From a virus: a stretch of 44,111 bases of DNA. The notes beneath the pieces are model-generated. The model saw only the letters and a program-made list of their open reading frames with translations. It made no database searches and was not told where the DNA came from. Shown here in pieces: positions 59 through 34,642 of this stretch. The stretch is taken from IMG/VR virus record IMGVR_UViG_3300041809_000550, positions 1 through 44,111 of that record; one strand, written 5' to 3'. Each line of letters opens with the position of its first letter. Position 1 is the first letter of the stretch. The position numbers and the translations under genes were made by a program.

Positions 59-331
59 ATGAAAACACTAGGCGAAGTCTTGCGCGAAGCAAGGCTTCAA
101 AAAGGTTTGTCGCTGCGCGATATCGAAAAGCTCAGTGACAACACCATTAGCAATATGCACGTTCACAACGTTGAAGAGCGTGGCTTCACGCCATCACCGA
201 AGAAACTGAGAGTGCTCGCGAAAGTTCTCAAGCTCAACTTTCTTGAGCTGATGATCTTAGCTGGCCACGTTCAGAGAACTGATCTCGTGAAGGACATTCA
301 ACAAAAAAAACAAGTGGAGACTAGACAATGA
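59..331 (+). CDS. XRE-family helix-turn-helix transcriptional regulator
   Basis: This 90-residue protein is probably a small DNA-binding repressor. An HTH_3 pattern covers about residues 4-60: LGEVLREARLQKGLSLRDIE begins the domain, followed by a recognition-helix region and a PSPKKLRVLAKVL segment typical of Cro/CI-like folds. I chose the ATG at 59 because GGGGA lies six bases upstream; an in-frame ATG at 44 has no ribosome site. The gene overlaps the primase gene by 4 bp (ATGA). It faces a divergent helicase gene across a region with inverted operator-like sites, so it plausibly controls the early switch. There is no C-terminal peptidase domain, so this is not a LexA/CI-type cleavable repressor. 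Confidence 0.85.
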   Translation: MKTLGEVLREARLQKGLSLRDIEKLSDNTISNMHVHNVEERGFTPSPKKLRVLAKVLKLNFLELMILAGHVQRTDLVKDIQQKKQVETRQ

Positions 332-7892: not shown

Positions 7893-9635
7893 ATGTCAAA
7901 AAAGAAAGCTGCACCCGTTTCTAACCCTGGCCAAAAAGTTTTTGAAAATTCCATCAAGCCCGTAGTCTCTCAGAAAACTTCCGATGGATTTAGAAACCTG
8001 GCCATGAAGTTGGGTGTTGCACCACTCGGTGATGAGCAGAGTGCAGACAATCAAATCTCTTTCGGTCGCTACCAGTTTAATCTTCTCACTCGCAATCGCA
8101 CGCAGCTCGAAGCCGCATACCGTAGCTCGTGGATTGTTGGGCGCGTGGTTGATTGCGTTGCTGAAGACATGACGAAAGCAGGAATACAAATCAACACCAA
8201 TGACGGTGCTGAGAAATTGCAGGATTTCAACGTGCAGATGTCACGCTTACAAATCTGGCAGCGTGTAAGAGACACAACAGCGTGGGGCAGATTATATGGC
8301 GGAGCAATCGGAGTCTTTCAAATCGACGGACAGGATCTTGAAAGTCCACTCGACCCTGACACTATCGACGTTGGGCAATTCCTCGGGATCGCGGTCTACG
8401 ATCGGTGGCAGCTCAACCCGGTGCTCTCTCAAGTTATCACCTCGGGCCCAGACATTGGTCTTCCAGCTTTCTATGATATCGTTCTTGGCAATAATCTTAA
8501 CGATCCAGCTCAAGTGCCTGGCGCTGGCTCGGAAACAGTCTCGCCGCAAGCGGGTGAGAACACGGTAAAACAACAGACATCACAAACCGCTGGCACGATG
8601 GTTTCGGCTCGCGTGCGTGTTCACCACAGTAGGTGTTTCAGAATGGGTGGCCACAAGCTTCCTTTCTTTCAAGCGATCACGGAAATGATGTGGGATGAAT
8701 CAGTGATTGAGCGGATGTGGGATAGGCTCGTTGAGTTTGAAACCGCAACGGCTTCCGCTGGTGGATTAATTGGCCGAGCACTTTTAAGAACGGTGAGCAT
8801 TGATGGGCTCAGAGAAATTTTGTCATCAGGTGGTGAAGCCAAATCTGGGCTCCTCGAAATGTTTGAGTACATGCGCCAGTTCCAGAATTCTGAGGGACTT
8901 ACCCTACTCGACAAAGAAGATGTGTTTTCAACCACTGCCTACAGCTTCGCCGGACTCTCAGACGTGCTTGAACAGTTTGGTGAGCAGCTTAGTGGAGCGA
9001 GTGAAACACCTCTCGTTAGATTATTTGGTCAGTCACCCTCGGGATTGGGTGGCAACGGTGACACCGACATCCGCAATTATTACGATTCCATTAACTCCAA
9101 ACAAGAGGCACATCTAAGAAATCCTGTTGAGAAGATTATCAAGATCATGTGGCGCTCAATCTTTGGTGAAGCCGCACCAACGGATTTGACTTTTAAGTTT
9201 ACGCCTCTCTGGCAGATGTCTGCTCTCGATAAGGCAACGATTGGCACGGCCAACACTGCATCGATCGTTCAAGCTGAGCAAGCTGGGCTTCTCACGATCC
9301 CAACAGCGATGAAAGAATTGAAACAGCAGGCTAGTGAGACTGGATTATTTAGTCACATCACGGATGAGGAAATCCAAGAGGCAGAGCTTGCACCACCGCC
9401 AATGCCTGATGAACCTAACGAGCCGGAAGAGGAAAGCACCAATACGGGTGATCCAGGCAACGGGCCAAACGAACCAAAGGAGATTGTTAAAAAAGTGGGC
9501 ATCAACAAAGACTCGAAATGGAAGAAATTTTTTAAGTTTTTCGGTGTGAAAGATAATGCCAAGAAGCCTACACCCAAACGACACAAGACGAAAGATCAGA
9601 AAGCGATCGAAGCATGGCTGATGAAAAAGCTCTAA
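7893..9635 (+). CDS. Portal protein, DUF1073 family
   Basis: This 580-residue protein should form the dodecameric ring through which DNA enters the head. It carries features of the DUF1073 family: LEAAYRSSWIVGRVVD with AEDMT nearby (about residues 70-95), RVHHSRCFRMGG near 245, a helical region DESVIERMWDRLVEFE, and TPLVRLFGQSPSGL with DIRNYYDSI near 370-395. The C-terminus is long, acidic and Pro-rich, then very basic (KKPTPKRHKTKDQK). It has a GGAAG ribosome site and lies directly after terL. Confidence 0.9.
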   Translation: MSKKKAAPVSNPGQKVFENSIKPVVSQKTSDGFRNLAMKLGVAPLGDEQSADNQISFGRYQFNLLTRNRTQLEAAYRSSWIVGRVVDCVAEDMTKAGIQINTNDGAEKLQDFNVQMSRLQIWQRVRDTTAWGRLYGGAIGVFQIDGQDLESPLDPDTIDVGQFLGIAVYDRWQLNPVLSQVITSGPDIGLPAFYDIVLGNNLNDPAQVPGAGSETVSPQAGENTVKQQTSQTAGTMVSARVRVHHSRCFRMGGHKLPFFQAITEMMWDESVIERMWDRLVEFETATASAGGLIGRALLRTVSIDGLREILSSGGEAKSGLLEMFEYMRQFQNSEGLTLLDKEDVFSTTAYSFAGLSDVLEQFGEQLSGASETPLVRLFGQSPSGLGGNGDTDIRNYYDSINSKQEAHLRNPVEKIIKIMWRSIFGEAAPTDLTFKFTPLWQMSALDKATIGTANTASIVQAEQAGLLTIPTAMKELKQQASETGLFSHITDEEIQEAELAPPPMPDEPNEPEEESTNTGDPGNGPNEPKEIVKKVGINKDSKWKKFFKFFGVKDNAKKPTPKRHKTKDQKAIEAWLMKKL

Positions 9636-9829
9636 TCACGATTAAGCTAAAAGACTTTGACGGCAAAGTGGTGAGAGAATTTAAAGCCCAATCGCCACTT
9701 GCCTTCCCCTATCTGTTTTGGGGAACAGCTCTTTTTGTGAGTAGCCGCGATGACAGCACAGTTTATCTTCAACGCAGTTATCACGCTCTGATGGAGCAAC
9801 ACACAAAAGAAGACGATGGAAAACACTAA
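9614..9829 (+). CDS. Hypothetical protein, 71 residues
   Basis: This short gene overlaps the portal end by 22 bp and the CsrA-like gene by 14 bp. The product begins ITIKLKDFDGKVVREF, a beta-rich stretch, and has an aromatic middle (FPYLFWGTALFVSS). I recognise no family. It opens a group of four small genes set between portal and head morphogenesis genes, a place where accessory genes are not usual. Confidence 0.6.
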   Translation: MADEKALITIKLKDFDGKVVREFKAQSPLAFPYLFWGTALFVSSRDDSTVYLQRSYHALMEQHTKEDDGKH

Positions 9830-10073
9830 GCCCTCACCTAACCGGATGCAGCAGTATGTGAATGAGAAGCGTGGCGATCGTGGAGCTGTGGTCACGACTT
9901 TAAAGCGTGGGAAATCAGTTGAGCTTTCCAACGGCATCTCAATAATTTTTAAAGAGTACAGAGGCACTGATCAAATCATGCTGGTACTTGTTGCACCCAA
10001 AGATGTTGTCATCTATCGTGAGAACACCAAGCACAAAACGGAAGAGGCTGATGAGCAAACTAATTCAAATTAA
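9816..10073 (+). CDS. CsrA/RsmE-like RNA-binding regulator with N-terminal extension
   Basis: Residues 25-70 of this 85-residue protein line up with CsrA: a first beta strand with Leu29 then RGKSVEL, a central ISIIFKEYRGTDQIMLVLV, and the signature APKDVVIYRE at 60-69, which corresponds to CsrA's NAPKEVxVHREE. In CsrA the Leu and Arg of these two segments touch RNA; here Leu29 and Arg68 occupy those positions. CsrA proteins bind GGA in hairpin loops and control translation and stability of mRNA. Unlike CsrA, it has about 24 extra N-terminal residues and an acidic tail. It may control phage late mRNAs or hijack host targets. Identification is by eye. Confidence 0.65.
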   Translation: MENTKPSPNRMQQYVNEKRGDRGAVVTTLKRGKSVELSNGISIIFKEYRGTDQIMLVLVAPKDVVIYRENTKHKTEEADEQTNSN

Positions 10074-10368
10074 AGATCGCCAAGGTGAGGCATACGTTTT
10101 CTATTGCCCCGGATGTGAGATGAATCACATTGTGCCTGTGAAGTATGAACAGCTTCACGCGAGCACAAAAGGAAAAGAAAAGCCTGTGTGGGCTTTCAAT
10201 GGAAATCTCGATAAGCCAAGTTTTAGGCCCAACTTTAAAATTGAGTGGTTTGGAGCTGAGCCACCACAGCGTTGCCACTCCATCATACGCGATGGAGAGA
10301 TTATCTTTCTGGTGGACAGCACGCACAAACTTTCTGGTGCTCGTGTGAAGATGAAGGATGAGCTATGA
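10051..10368 (+). CDS. DUF6527-like small phage protein
   Basis: From the ATG at 10051 the product has 105 residues. It shows the pattern of the phage DUF6527 proteins: CPGC at 19-22 with a nearby His, WAFNGNLDKPSF at 47-58, RCHSII at 74-79, and STHKLSGARV near the C-terminus. The conserved Cys and His residues suggest metal binding. The biochemical role is not known to me. It has a GAGG ribosome site within the end of the CsrA-like gene and overlaps the next ORF by ATGA. Confidence 0.7.
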   Translation: MSKLIQIKDRQGEAYVFYCPGCEMNHIVPVKYEQLHASTKGKEKPVWAFNGNLDKPSFRPNFKIEWFGAEPPQRCHSIIRDGEIIFLVDSTHKLSGARVKMKDEL

Positions 10369-10493
10369 AGTTTGAAACGTACTGCGCTGGATGTGGAAAA
10401 TATCTGTCACCTCATTTGGCTGTGCCCATGAAGCTTTCTTACCACACCGAAGTCTTTGGGACTCAAGCGCACAGCGATGGCCATGAGAATTAA
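10365..10493 (+). CDS. Small CxxC protein, 42 residues
   Basis: This ORF starts in an ATGA overlap with the DUF6527-like gene and ends 14 bases before the next gene. It begins MKFETYCAGCGKYLSPH, with one CxxC and several His residues. It might bind zinc as a dimer. I recognise no family; gene tiling is the main support. Confidence 0.55.
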   Translation: MKFETYCAGCGKYLSPHLAVPMKLSYHTEVFGTQAHSDGHEN

Positions 10494-10507
10494 GAAGTGG
10501 GGACTCA

Positions 10508-11278
10508 ATGCCGACACTCAAGAGCAAACAGTTCAAGCCTAACGCTTCCGCTGAAGCTCAGTTTGCAAAAGCACTTCGCAAGGTAGCAAGTAACGCTGCT
10601 CACGTGGTTGAAGTCCACGTCGATGGTGCCACCATTCAAGACGAAAAGAATATGGTGAAAGTGCTCAACGAATATTCTGAGCGCCTGACACCGTGGGCAG
10701 CACGCCAAGCTGCGAAGATGCTTGAGCGCGTGGCTAAGAAAAATAAAACCGCTTGGCGCAATCGATCGCAACAGATGCACGCAGCGATGCAGACTCACGT
10801 AGCGAAAGCGGCGGCAGGAAAAAGAGCAGCGGAACTTTTACAAGAGCAGATTGATTTAATTAAATCCATTCCACTTCGAGCCGCTGAGCGGGCACAGAAA
10901 TTAGCGCAAGAGGCTTTTTTCAACGGGACACGCGCCAGTGAAATTGCGGCTGAGCTTGCTCGCACAGGCAAAGTCAGTGAGAACGACGCTGAGCGGATTG
11001 CACGGACAGAGGTTGCAAGATCCAACAGCGTCATCACGATGGTGCGGGCTCAAGCGGCAGGCTCTCGTCAATATGTTTGGCGCAATTCAGGTGATGCCGC
11101 TGTCCGTGAATCGCATGAGGAATACCACGGGCCTGGTGGGAAAAAGAATCACAACAAGCTAGATGGTATGGTATTTAGTTGGGATTCTCCACCTAAGCTC
11201 GATGATGGAACAGTGGGACATCCGGGCACTTTTCCCAATTGCCGATGCTACCCCGAGCCTTTCTTTCCCGAAGAATAG
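10508..11278 (+). CDS. Head morphogenesis protein, Mu gpF / SPP1 gp7 family
   Basis: This 256-residue protein is a minor head component. The C-terminal third fits the Phage_Mu_F domain: NDAERIARTEVARSNS (about 158-173), WRNSGDAAVRESHEEYHG, a DGMVFSWDSPP segment, and the diagnostic HPGTFPNCRCYPEP near the end, with its paired Cys. The N-terminal part is helical and Ala-rich. Such proteins ride inside the capsid near the portal. It has a GGGGA ribosome site. Confidence 0.88.
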   Translation: MPTLKSKQFKPNASAEAQFAKALRKVASNAAHVVEVHVDGATIQDEKNMVKVLNEYSERLTPWAARQAAKMLERVAKKNKTAWRNRSQQMHAAMQTHVAKAAAGKRAAELLQEQIDLIKSIPLRAAERAQKLAQEAFFNGTRASEIAAELARTGKVSENDAERIARTEVARSNSVITMVRAQAAGSRQYVWRNSGDAAVRESHEEYHGPGGKKNHNKLDGMVFSWDSPPKLDDGTVGHPGTFPNCRCYPEPFFPEE

Positions 11279-11338: not shown

Positions 11339-11353
11339 CCTTGAGTCAAGGAG
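11339..11353 (+). promoter_or_regulatory. Possible hairpin over ribosome site with CARGGA motif
   Basis: CCTTG-AGT-CAAGG at 11339-11351 can form a 5-bp hairpin whose 3' arm contains the AAGGAG ribosome site of the next gene. CAAGGA also matches the core of CsrA-binding sites. This would let a CsrA-like protein from the same cluster control translation. The stem is short and the idea is speculative. Confidence 0.25.
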
Positions 11354-11363
11354 AAACTTTCAA

Positions 11364-12149
11364 ATGAAAAATTTTTTAGCGATTGCCGCGCTGGTCACAG
11401 CCCTGCTCGCACTGCCAACTCAAACTCTTGCTAATGGTGCTGCTTTTGAATCAACGGGATCGCAATATCCTTCACTCGTTTTAAAAAATCAATTCGGTGA
11501 AACCTCGATCAACTCGATCGTGGGTGGAACTTCAAATCAAATCGATTGCAATTTTATCGTAGACAGCACCAACGGAAATGGCTTCGGAGTCAGGTCGCTC
11601 AAAGGCCCTGGCTGCGCAAAAGTTTTCATGCACACGACTCAAACACCGGCAAGTGGAAGCCCCAACCCGGCAGCGGGTTACATCCTGGTTCAACTCGCAC
11701 AACAATATGCTGGTTACATCGGCGGTTATTCAGGCTTTGTTAGTCCAGTCAGTGGCACACCCATCAACATCTCAAGCGGGCTTACTGCTCACGCATCTTA
11801 CATTATCACGAGCGTTGGAACTTCTACCGCTGCAAACTGGCAAGCCATTGGCCTTCCACTCGGAGTCACACCAGCCGTGGGTGTTTCTTTCGTTGCAACA
11901 ACTGCATCGGCTGGAACAGGCACAGGGATTGTTGAAGCACCAGCGGCTGTTGGATCAGGCGTACTCTACACTGATGTGCTCGGTGATGCCAATCTCTCAG
12001 CATCCGCAACAACGGGTGCAAACATTTTGCTACGCGTGTTGGGCGCGACTAGCTCAAGCGTTACCACCTTGGTGGCAACAGCACCGGCTGATGGCACTGT
12101 GATTGGTTTACGTTTCGTCATGCTTCCACTTTCTTCCCAACTTAAATAA
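11364..12149 (+). CDS. Virion-like protein carrying a Sec signal peptide
   Basis: The 261-residue product begins MKNFLAIAALVTALLALPTQ, followed by TLA-NG, a clear Sec signal peptide with a signal peptidase I site at about residue 23. The remainder is beta-rich and close to a known phage structural repertoire: QAIGLPLGVTPAVGVSF, then ATTASAGTGTGIVEAP and ATAPADGTVIGLRF, a pattern I associate with head decoration or collar-adjacent proteins. A signal peptide on such a protein, placed between head genes, is strange. The AAGGAG site at 11348 supports the ATG at 11364 rather than the earlier one. It could decorate virions after periplasmic export or be a host-surface protein. Confidence 0.7.
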   Translation: MKNFLAIAALVTALLALPTQTLANGAAFESTGSQYPSLVLKNQFGETSINSIVGGTSNQIDCNFIVDSTNGNGFGVRSLKGPGCAKVFMHTTQTPASGSPNPAAGYILVQLAQQYAGYIGGYSGFVSPVSGTPINISSGLTAHASYIITSVGTSTAANWQAIGLPLGVTPAVGVSFVATTASAGTGTGIVEAPAAVGSGVLYTDVLGDANLSASATTGANILLRVLGATSSSVTTLVATAPADGTVIGLRFVMLPLSSQLK

Positions 12150-17667: not shown

Positions 17668-18069
17668 ATGAGAAAAATATTTTCACTACTTGCAATCGTT
17701 GCAGCTTTAATTTCGGCGCAAGCTTTTGCTAACGTCGTACCTGTTGGGCAGGTTGTTTTCCCAACGGCAACAATTCCGATCAGCACCACGACAAGCAATG
17801 CGATTTCCACCAACGGGATGTCTCTTGTCGGATGTCAGCTTCCTGCAACGATGACAGGAACGTCGATCAGCTTCACTGTGGCTACGACTTTAGCCGGAAC
17901 TTATCAAGAGCTTGATAATGCCAGCGGGAAAGTCACTTACACCATAGCTGGTGGAAAGTTTATTGCGATCAACCCCGTGGACTTTTACGGTGTTCAATTT
18001 TTCAAAATTGTATCCGGGTCTTCTGAAGCCGCCGCAAGAAGTCTTGCGTGCACAATGAAAGGAATCTAA
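17668..18069 (+). CDS. Small protein with Sec signal peptide in tail module
   Basis: The 133-residue product begins MRKIFSLLAIVAALISAQAF with an A-N junction at about 22-23, a textbook signal peptide. The mature part is Thr/Ser-rich and beta-like (TGTSISFTVATTLAGTYQEL, then KVTYTIAGGKFIAINPVDF), and two Cys may form a disulfide. It lies between neck and sheath genes with only a few bases on each side. Placement in the late operon suggests a virion-associated or surface-exposed protein. The signal peptide is hard to reconcile with cytoplasmic assembly. Confidence 0.65.
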   Translation: MRKIFSLLAIVAALISAQAFANVVPVGQVVFPTATIPISTTTSNAISTNGMSLVGCQLPATMTGTSISFTVATTLAGTYQELDNASGKVTYTIAGGKFIAINPVDFYGVQFFKIVSGSSEAAARSLACTMKGI

Positions 18070-33924: not shown

Positions 33925-34305
33925 ATGACCACATCAGCTTACAGGCCACTCACTGACGCCGAAAACGCTTTCAAAATTATCGTGTGGACTCCACTCATTA
34001 AAATGGGTGAAGTGGCTCTTGCGGGCGTTGAAGCGTCCATCCCGGTGCTTGATCTTCCGGTATTTCAAGATCTCGAAGACGATGCAATCAATGCCATTAC
34101 TGATGCGCTCTTCAATCAAATCGTTCTTTTTATCGACGTGACAGCAATCAAGCTCGTCAACGCTGAACTTCAAACCAAGTGGGCTACTGCAAGCGAAGCT
34201 CTGGCCCTCATCGCTCAAGAGCAAGGAGCAAACTCAAGTGCGTATCAAACTGCCCTTCAAGCCGCTGCAAGTGATTTTGCTGCTTTTGTTCACACTGGCC
34301 CTTAG
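33925..34305 (+). CDS. Hypothetical helical protein, 126 residues
   Basis: The product is mostly helical and acidic, with a moderately hydrophobic stretch near 56-78 (DDAINAITDALFNQIVLFID). No family recognised. The ATG lies in the T-run of the preceding terminator and has no ribosome site; ATG at 34003 is an alternative but no better. The gene overlaps the following lipoprotein by 68 bp. Its codon pattern looks coding. Position in the lysis-like region is the only functional hint. Confidence 0.6.
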   Translation: MTTSAYRPLTDAENAFKIIVWTPLIKMGEVALAGVEASIPVLDLPVFQDLEDDAINAITDALFNQIVLFIDVTAIKLVNAELQTKWATASEALALIAQEQGANSSAYQTALQAAASDFAAFVHTGP

Positions 34306-34642
34306 CGCCTGCCAAACGATCACGATCCAAAACCGCACAGCTTGCTTTGTGAATGGTGTGATTAGTCTTGGATCTACTTGCGCCAACACCGTGGGTACTT
34401 CCACAACGACTCAACTCACAACTGAGCAAACGCTTGACGTGCTTGAAGCGCGTCCTGCCGTAAGCCCGCTACCTGCTCACCCACCTGCCGTGTTTCAATC
34501 GGCAGCTGACTACGGTGAAGAAACGGTTAAGCTTGAAACCGCGTGCAGACTCCTAAAAAACGATTGCTCTTATGAGCTTCAATCCACGATCGCCAATCAC
34601 AAAAAGATTTTAGAGCAAGTCCAATCTCTCAAAGCGGAATGA
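34238..34642 (+). CDS. Lipoprotein, possible spanin-like protein
   Basis: From the GTG at 34238 (AAGGAG 10 bases upstream) the 134-residue product has a type II signal peptide: basic RIKLPFK, a hydrophobic LQVILLLLFTLALSAC with lipobox ending at Cys25 or so. The mature part has several more Cys (TACFVNG, STCANT, TACRLLKNDCS) and a C-terminal helix. It overlaps the preceding gene in another frame, as o-spanins often do, but the upstream protein lacks the i-spanin membrane span, so the role is uncertain. Bor-like surface lipoprotein is an alternative. Confidence 0.65.
   Translation: MRIKLPFKPLQVILLLLFTLALSACQTITIQNRTACFVNGVISLGSTCANTVGTSTTTQLTTEQTLDVLEARPAVSPLPAHPPAVFQSAADYGEETVKLETACRLLKNDCSYELQSTIANHKKILEQVQSLKAE

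Follow-up and report, generated by a model that had tools for sequence, protein, structure and literature searches.

We identify an open reading frame at positions 9,816 to 10,073 (+) of a 44,111-base virus record, the whole of which is called the window here, that by sequence comparison is a genuine gene coding for a divergent relative of CsrA. The gene starts with ATG and encodes an 85-aa product whose similarity to CsrA exceeds chance and spans approximately residues 24 to 74. On balance, the product is probably a late-made, dimeric, GGA-RNA-binding accessory protein that would tune translation of the host and/or the phage.

Used as the sole query against viral and genome contigs, the window protein recovered no relatives; the neighboring portal and Mu-F genes led to them, with portal searches supplying 41 loci (L numbers below). 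These relatives settle the CsrA identity, rather than the score of the window protein itself, which matches the Pfam CsrA family (PF02599) at 22.5 bits, with E=1.1e-4 in a library search and E=4.4e-6 in a search confined to the record. As this falls under the curated Pfam cut-off of 27 bits, we use the label CsrA-like. The protein also scores far under the family cut-off of NCBIfam csrA, and among PDB chains its top sequence match is RsmE (E=0.04). In L009, the syntenic homologue reaches 37.7 bits (E=2e-9) and exceeds the curated cut-off, as does a related protein in L078; the L005 homologue by itself scores poorly and has no Pfam match. Among 14,545 ORFs, an HMM of canonical CsrA only gave E=4.3e-7 for the window ORF and 1.3e-8 for the L009 ORF, and hhalign against CsrA returned probabilities of 96.6% with three sequences and 97.7% with six. 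The preliminary description had named the product CsrA-like from its sequence alone; that identity is right, and the relatives make a stronger case for it than the single-sequence match. Three other leads were discarded: KARI_N and Rho matches of the window protein are weak and inconsistent, a Klebsiella SegesCirculi match (E=0.8) is due to chance, and the best tblastn phage match, the 'Bacteriophage sp.' record MT836129 (MT836129.1, L003), proved to be a flagellar cluster of bacterial origin that includes fliW-csrA. This last record carries flagellin-hook genes, fliW and csrA, and is apparently misassigned as phage.

Structure prediction agrees with this assignment. The AlphaFold model of the window protein has a core pLDDT of 83-86 (residues 31-70) and an overall pTM of only 0.44. 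VIA-align Z-scores for this low-depth model are modest, at up to 4.7, and the best seven rows are all CsrA, RsmA or RsmE (Z 3.6-4.7), with the first unrelated row, HU, at 2.3; HU-like rows (Z 2.0-2.3) are background and were rejected as fold relatives. Foldseek returned CsrA as the top two PDB matches (probabilities 1.00 and 0.99, E-values 0.14 and 0.38) and a phage CsrA as the top BFVD match. The protein is thus predicted to adopt the CsrA monomer fold, and in the structural comparison suggested earlier the only above-background PDB matches of the model are CsrA, RsmA and RsmE. Shared with these PF02599 proteins are the core beta fold, a G-[ES] turn, the motif APK-x-V-x-[IV]-[HY]-R-E and Arg44. 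The window protein differs from them in its score under the family cut-off, in a Thr replacing Leu4, in lacking a predicted C-terminal helix and in an N-terminal helical extension of about 23 aa, which had been noted from the sequence and is present.

All alignments place CsrA Met1 at window residue 24 and equate Thr27 with Leu4, Leu29 with Arg6 and Arg69 with Arg44. Both the Leu and the Arg that touch RNA had been described as retained. The Arg is, as Arg69, but the Leu is not, with Thr27 occupying the Leu4 position in sequence and structure alignments alike; the L005 homologue has Ile there and the L009 homologue Leu. When six diverse relatives are aligned, the Arg44 equivalent is the sole invariant column. 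RNA binding by CsrA depends critically on R44 and is partly lost in L4A (PMC7652899), and the retention of Arg69 at the critical position makes RNA binding by the window protein plausible. This residue pattern, Arg44 kept and Leu4 lost, marks positions of interest for function.

The CsrA-like gene is embedded among packaging and head genes (see table). As first described, it sits beside three other small genes, and all of them lie within the portal-to-Mu-F interval; a terminase large subunit and a DUF2213 protease-like family are also found nearby (Pfam/PHROG). The gene overlaps the 71-aa ORF by 14 nt at its 5′ end and the DUF6527 gene by 23 nt at its 3′ end. Because the genes from portal through DUF6527 overlap one another, they are probably read as a single late unit. 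A promoter scan yielded only 9-of-12 matches, 10 in number against 5.7 +/- 2.1 in shuffles. Overlapping the 42-aa Zn-ribbon ORF, out of frame with it, and the start of the Mu-F gene is a Fis-like helix-turn-helix gene remnant (10432-10539, +) that matches an HTH ORF of L005 (5566-5799) with 58% identity over 36 aa (E=1.5e-11); by comparison with L005, the last part of the Zn-ribbon gene and the first part of the HTH gene seem to have been lost from the window.

Table. Coordinates of the CsrA-like gene, its neighbors, proposed RNA sites and more distant CsrA-like ORFs; positions refer to the window unless a locus is named.
Feature	Position	Strand	Basis or remark
Portal protein (Phage_portal_3 / phrog_146)	7893..9635	+	Upstream neighbor; Pfam/PHROG family match
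71-aa protein of unknown function	9614..9829	+	Overlaps portal and CsrA-like gene; conserved in L004-L009
CsrA-like protein, 85 aa	9816..10073	+	Pfam, canonical-only HMM, hhalign, AlphaFold model, VIA-align
CsrA-like protein, layout	residues ~1-23, 24-72, 73-85		N-terminal helical extension, CsrA-like core, disordered tail
CsrA-like core, residues 24-72	9885..10031	+	Thr27 at Leu4 position, Arg69 at Arg44 position
DUF6527 protein (phrog_3362)	10051..10368	+	Overlaps 3′ end of CsrA-like gene
Truncated Zn-ribbon ORF, 42 aa	10365..10493	+	Comparison with relatives
Mu-F-like head morphogenesis protein (PF04233 / phrog_324)	10508..11278	+	Family match
CCTTG-AGT-CAAGGAG, Shine-Dalgarno site with small hairpin	11339..11353	+	Unsupported as CsrA site
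CAAGGAG Shine-Dalgarno and GTG start of lipoprotein gene	34222..34240	+	Unsupported as CsrA site
CsrA-like ORFs at RusA-terS junction	L012:2501-2713; L078:202-420; L105 about 1501-1626

The slot is conserved among relatives of the phage. L004-L008 carry in the same place a homologue 41% identical to the window protein, the five being identical to each other over the gene, and L009 carries one 29% identical in the corresponding slot; identity to the window protein among syntenic and related homologues is 29-41%; the L009 protein has HRE as well as Leu at the Leu4 position. Portal, small ORF, CsrA-like gene, DUF6527, Zn ribbon and Mu-F head protein follow in the same order in the window, L004-L008 and L009, and L080 also has a CsrA-like gene between portal and Mu-F. 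The RusA-terS junction is a second recurrent site in the packaging module, with CsrA-like ORFs of more distant relatives in L012, L078 and L082/L105 (RusA and terS were called by reading the sequence rather than by family search). Among 50 contigs carrying relatives of the portal or Mu-F gene, at least 7 contain a Pfam CsrA match at E<=0.01; this is a minimum, because the contigs are fragmentary and the model passed over the L006 homologue. Found in few of these relatives, the gene is, judged by its distribution, accessory. It diverges faster than its neighbors: identity to L005 is 41% for the CsrA-like protein, 55% for the small upstream ORF, 71% for DUF6527, 79% for the portal and 82% for Mu-F. 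A host search by way of portal relatives returned only one Nitrospirota MAG contig, at 49% identity.

The preliminary description held that no regulator is expected in a head gene cluster. This does not stand: phage head clusters that contain a CsrA gene were already known, with CsrA-like genes in the head modules of Bcep22-like and F116-like podoviruses (PMC9144972, PMC10269572) and csrA alleles of 30 phages catalogued by Sobrero and Valverde (PMC7366521). In the Bcep22-like phage JC1, gp47 lies between portal and major capsid, likewise in Skulduggery, Parlo and Itty13. The head-module proteins of phrog_8397 (JC1 gp47, CSP3 orf23, Skulduggery gp12, Parlo gp62, Itty13 gp22, F116p47) share with the window a small CsrA-like gene near portal and capsid genes in a late transcription unit; they differ in belonging to another subfamily and an unrelated phage type, and their genes stand just before the major capsid gene rather than in the portal-Mu-F interval. 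Against phrog_8397 the window protein scores E=0.17, which does not place it in that cluster, compared with E=0.0015-0.0018 against phrog_5527/9500. That it is nearer the latter suggests that the head-module placements of CsrA-like genes arose separately, although sequences of this length do not support a firm tree. In the window group, a conserved and fast-evolving set of CsrA-like genes occupies the packaging/head module of a further phage type unrelated to the first, which adds to the case for recurrent placement of CsrA-like genes in this module in unrelated phages.

Canonical phage CsrA proteins are likewise phage-encoded, but none lies within a head module: those of F116 (F116p24), AUS531phi (Bci) and Vibrio phages, 60-69% identical to E. 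coli CsrA, belong to early or regulatory modules, and the gene for PTXU04 gp28 lies next to the lysis genes. F116 (L047, L095) has two CsrA-like genes, the canonical F116p24 near repressor genes and the divergent F116p47 among structural genes. Phage CsrA homologues are known and little tested, with effects on infection reported for two of them. Knockdown of PTXU04 gp28 leads to smaller plaques, in a 2025 screen that describes the role of CsrA in the phage life cycle as previously untested (PMC11879866), although an earlier study had characterized the prophage CsrA Bci and its part in QS, motility, biofilm and phage infection (PMC7546807).

CARGGA-type CsrA sites had been proposed at 11339-11353 and 34222. 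CAAGGAG is located at 11347-11353 and at 34222-34228, where it does form the ribosome site of a lipoprotein gene as described, but both are ordinary Shine-Dalgarno sequences, unsupported as CsrA sites, and CARGGA occurs at ribosome sites no more often than by chance. CARGGA is present in the leaders of 2 of 53 genes against about 2.5 expected, a value derived from 11 leaders with ARGGA (by inspection) and the 23 of 99 ARGGA words in the window that are CARGGA; these leader counts are approximate, as the gene list was hand-assembled from the ORF list and two starts are off a start codon. The upstream hairpin is an exact inverted repeat, CCTTG-AGT-CAAGG, but its GGA (11350-11352) lies mostly within the stem of the repeat (11339-11351), with the GG paired in the 3′ arm outside the loop; CsrA favors GGA in loops, and pairing of the GGA reduces affinity (PMC7652899). 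L005, L009 and L010 keep the Shine-Dalgarno core AAGGAGA and not the 5′ arm of the hairpin, which varies as CCTTG, CTTAG and TTTCA without compensation, the pattern that a strong ribosome site would be expected to show. Folding energies of the leaders are unremarkable (z -1.5, -0.9, 0.0), and GGA in stable loops is rarer in the window than in shuffles of dinucleotide blocks (50 versus 72, sd 11). No described CsrB/RsmZ-like decoy RNA was found, and no Rfam family reached threshold in the window. Neither enrichment of CARGGA, nor GGA in loops, nor conservation of the hairpin, nor folding of the leaders pointed to a credible RNA target in the window.

In the reading we prefer, the CsrA beta core would form with an added N-terminal helix and dimerize by strand swapping in the manner of CsrA. 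The protein would be produced late, within the overlapping portal-to-head operon, as the gene overlaps at both ends imply; Arg69 would contact GGA-containing RNA, and the protein would act as an accessory factor tuning translation of host and/or phage mRNAs in the late phase. Several observations count against this reading: the sub-cut-off family score, the poor score of the L005 homologue by itself, the change of Leu4 to Thr and of the first-strand Arg6 to Leu, and the failure to find a credible RNA target in the window. In one rival reading the CsrA fold no longer binds RNA and has been repurposed to act as a structural component or chaperone when the portal or head is assembled. The adjoining portal gene, the missing Leu4 side chain and a divergence from L005 faster than that of DUF6527, portal and Mu-F (41% identity versus 71-82%) fit such reuse, which we nonetheless consider rather improbable: the one invariant residue of six relatives is at the Arg44 position, a constraint with no easy explanation other than RNA binding, and the gene is missing from the majority of relatives that share this portal and Mu-F and is therefore not essential for assembly. 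Autoregulation, in which the protein would bind GGA at ribosome sites of the late operon (11347-11353, for example), follows the preliminary description and would account for the overlap of CAAGGAG with that site and the conservation of the Shine-Dalgarno stretch in L005 and L009. We find it very doubtful, and judged from the sequence it is the least supported of the three rival readings, since the GGA is in a stem and not a loop, the 5′ arm changes without compensation, L010 keeps AAGGAGAAA in a contig with no CsrA match, and neither CARGGA leaders nor loop GGA rise above chance.

A third rival has the protein incorporated into virions together with the head or portal and carried into the next host, where it would act at once on host translation. 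Its gene lies beside portal and head genes both here and in Bcep22-like phages, and JC1 gp47 was detected in purified virions (PMC9144972); the detection is one peptide from a single unrelated phage with a CsrA of another subfamily (phrog_8397), and small late proteins contaminate virion preparations, leaving this reading unlikely. There is a slim chance that such loading would also explain the recurrent placement, with CsrA-like genes entering the packaging/head module repeatedly and independently (at the portal-Mu-F interval, the RusA-terS junction and the portal-to-capsid interval of Bcep22-like phages) because the position permits virion loading, so that the regulator would be injected with the genome and act before phage gene expression.

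The genes behind the two proposed RNA sites have features of their own. Directly after the Mu-F head gene, 11364-12149 encodes a protein with a signal-peptide-like N-terminus and no Pfam or PHROG match; the gene is conserved in L005, L009 and L010, including the Shine-Dalgarno stretch AGTCAAGGAGAAA, and a gene in the tail region (17668-18069) has a signal-like N-terminus resembling it. The lipoprotein gene (34238-34642) begins at a GTG and shares 68 nt, in a different frame, with the preceding ORF (33925-34305); it lies downstream of the late genes and possibly encodes a lysis-region outer spanin.
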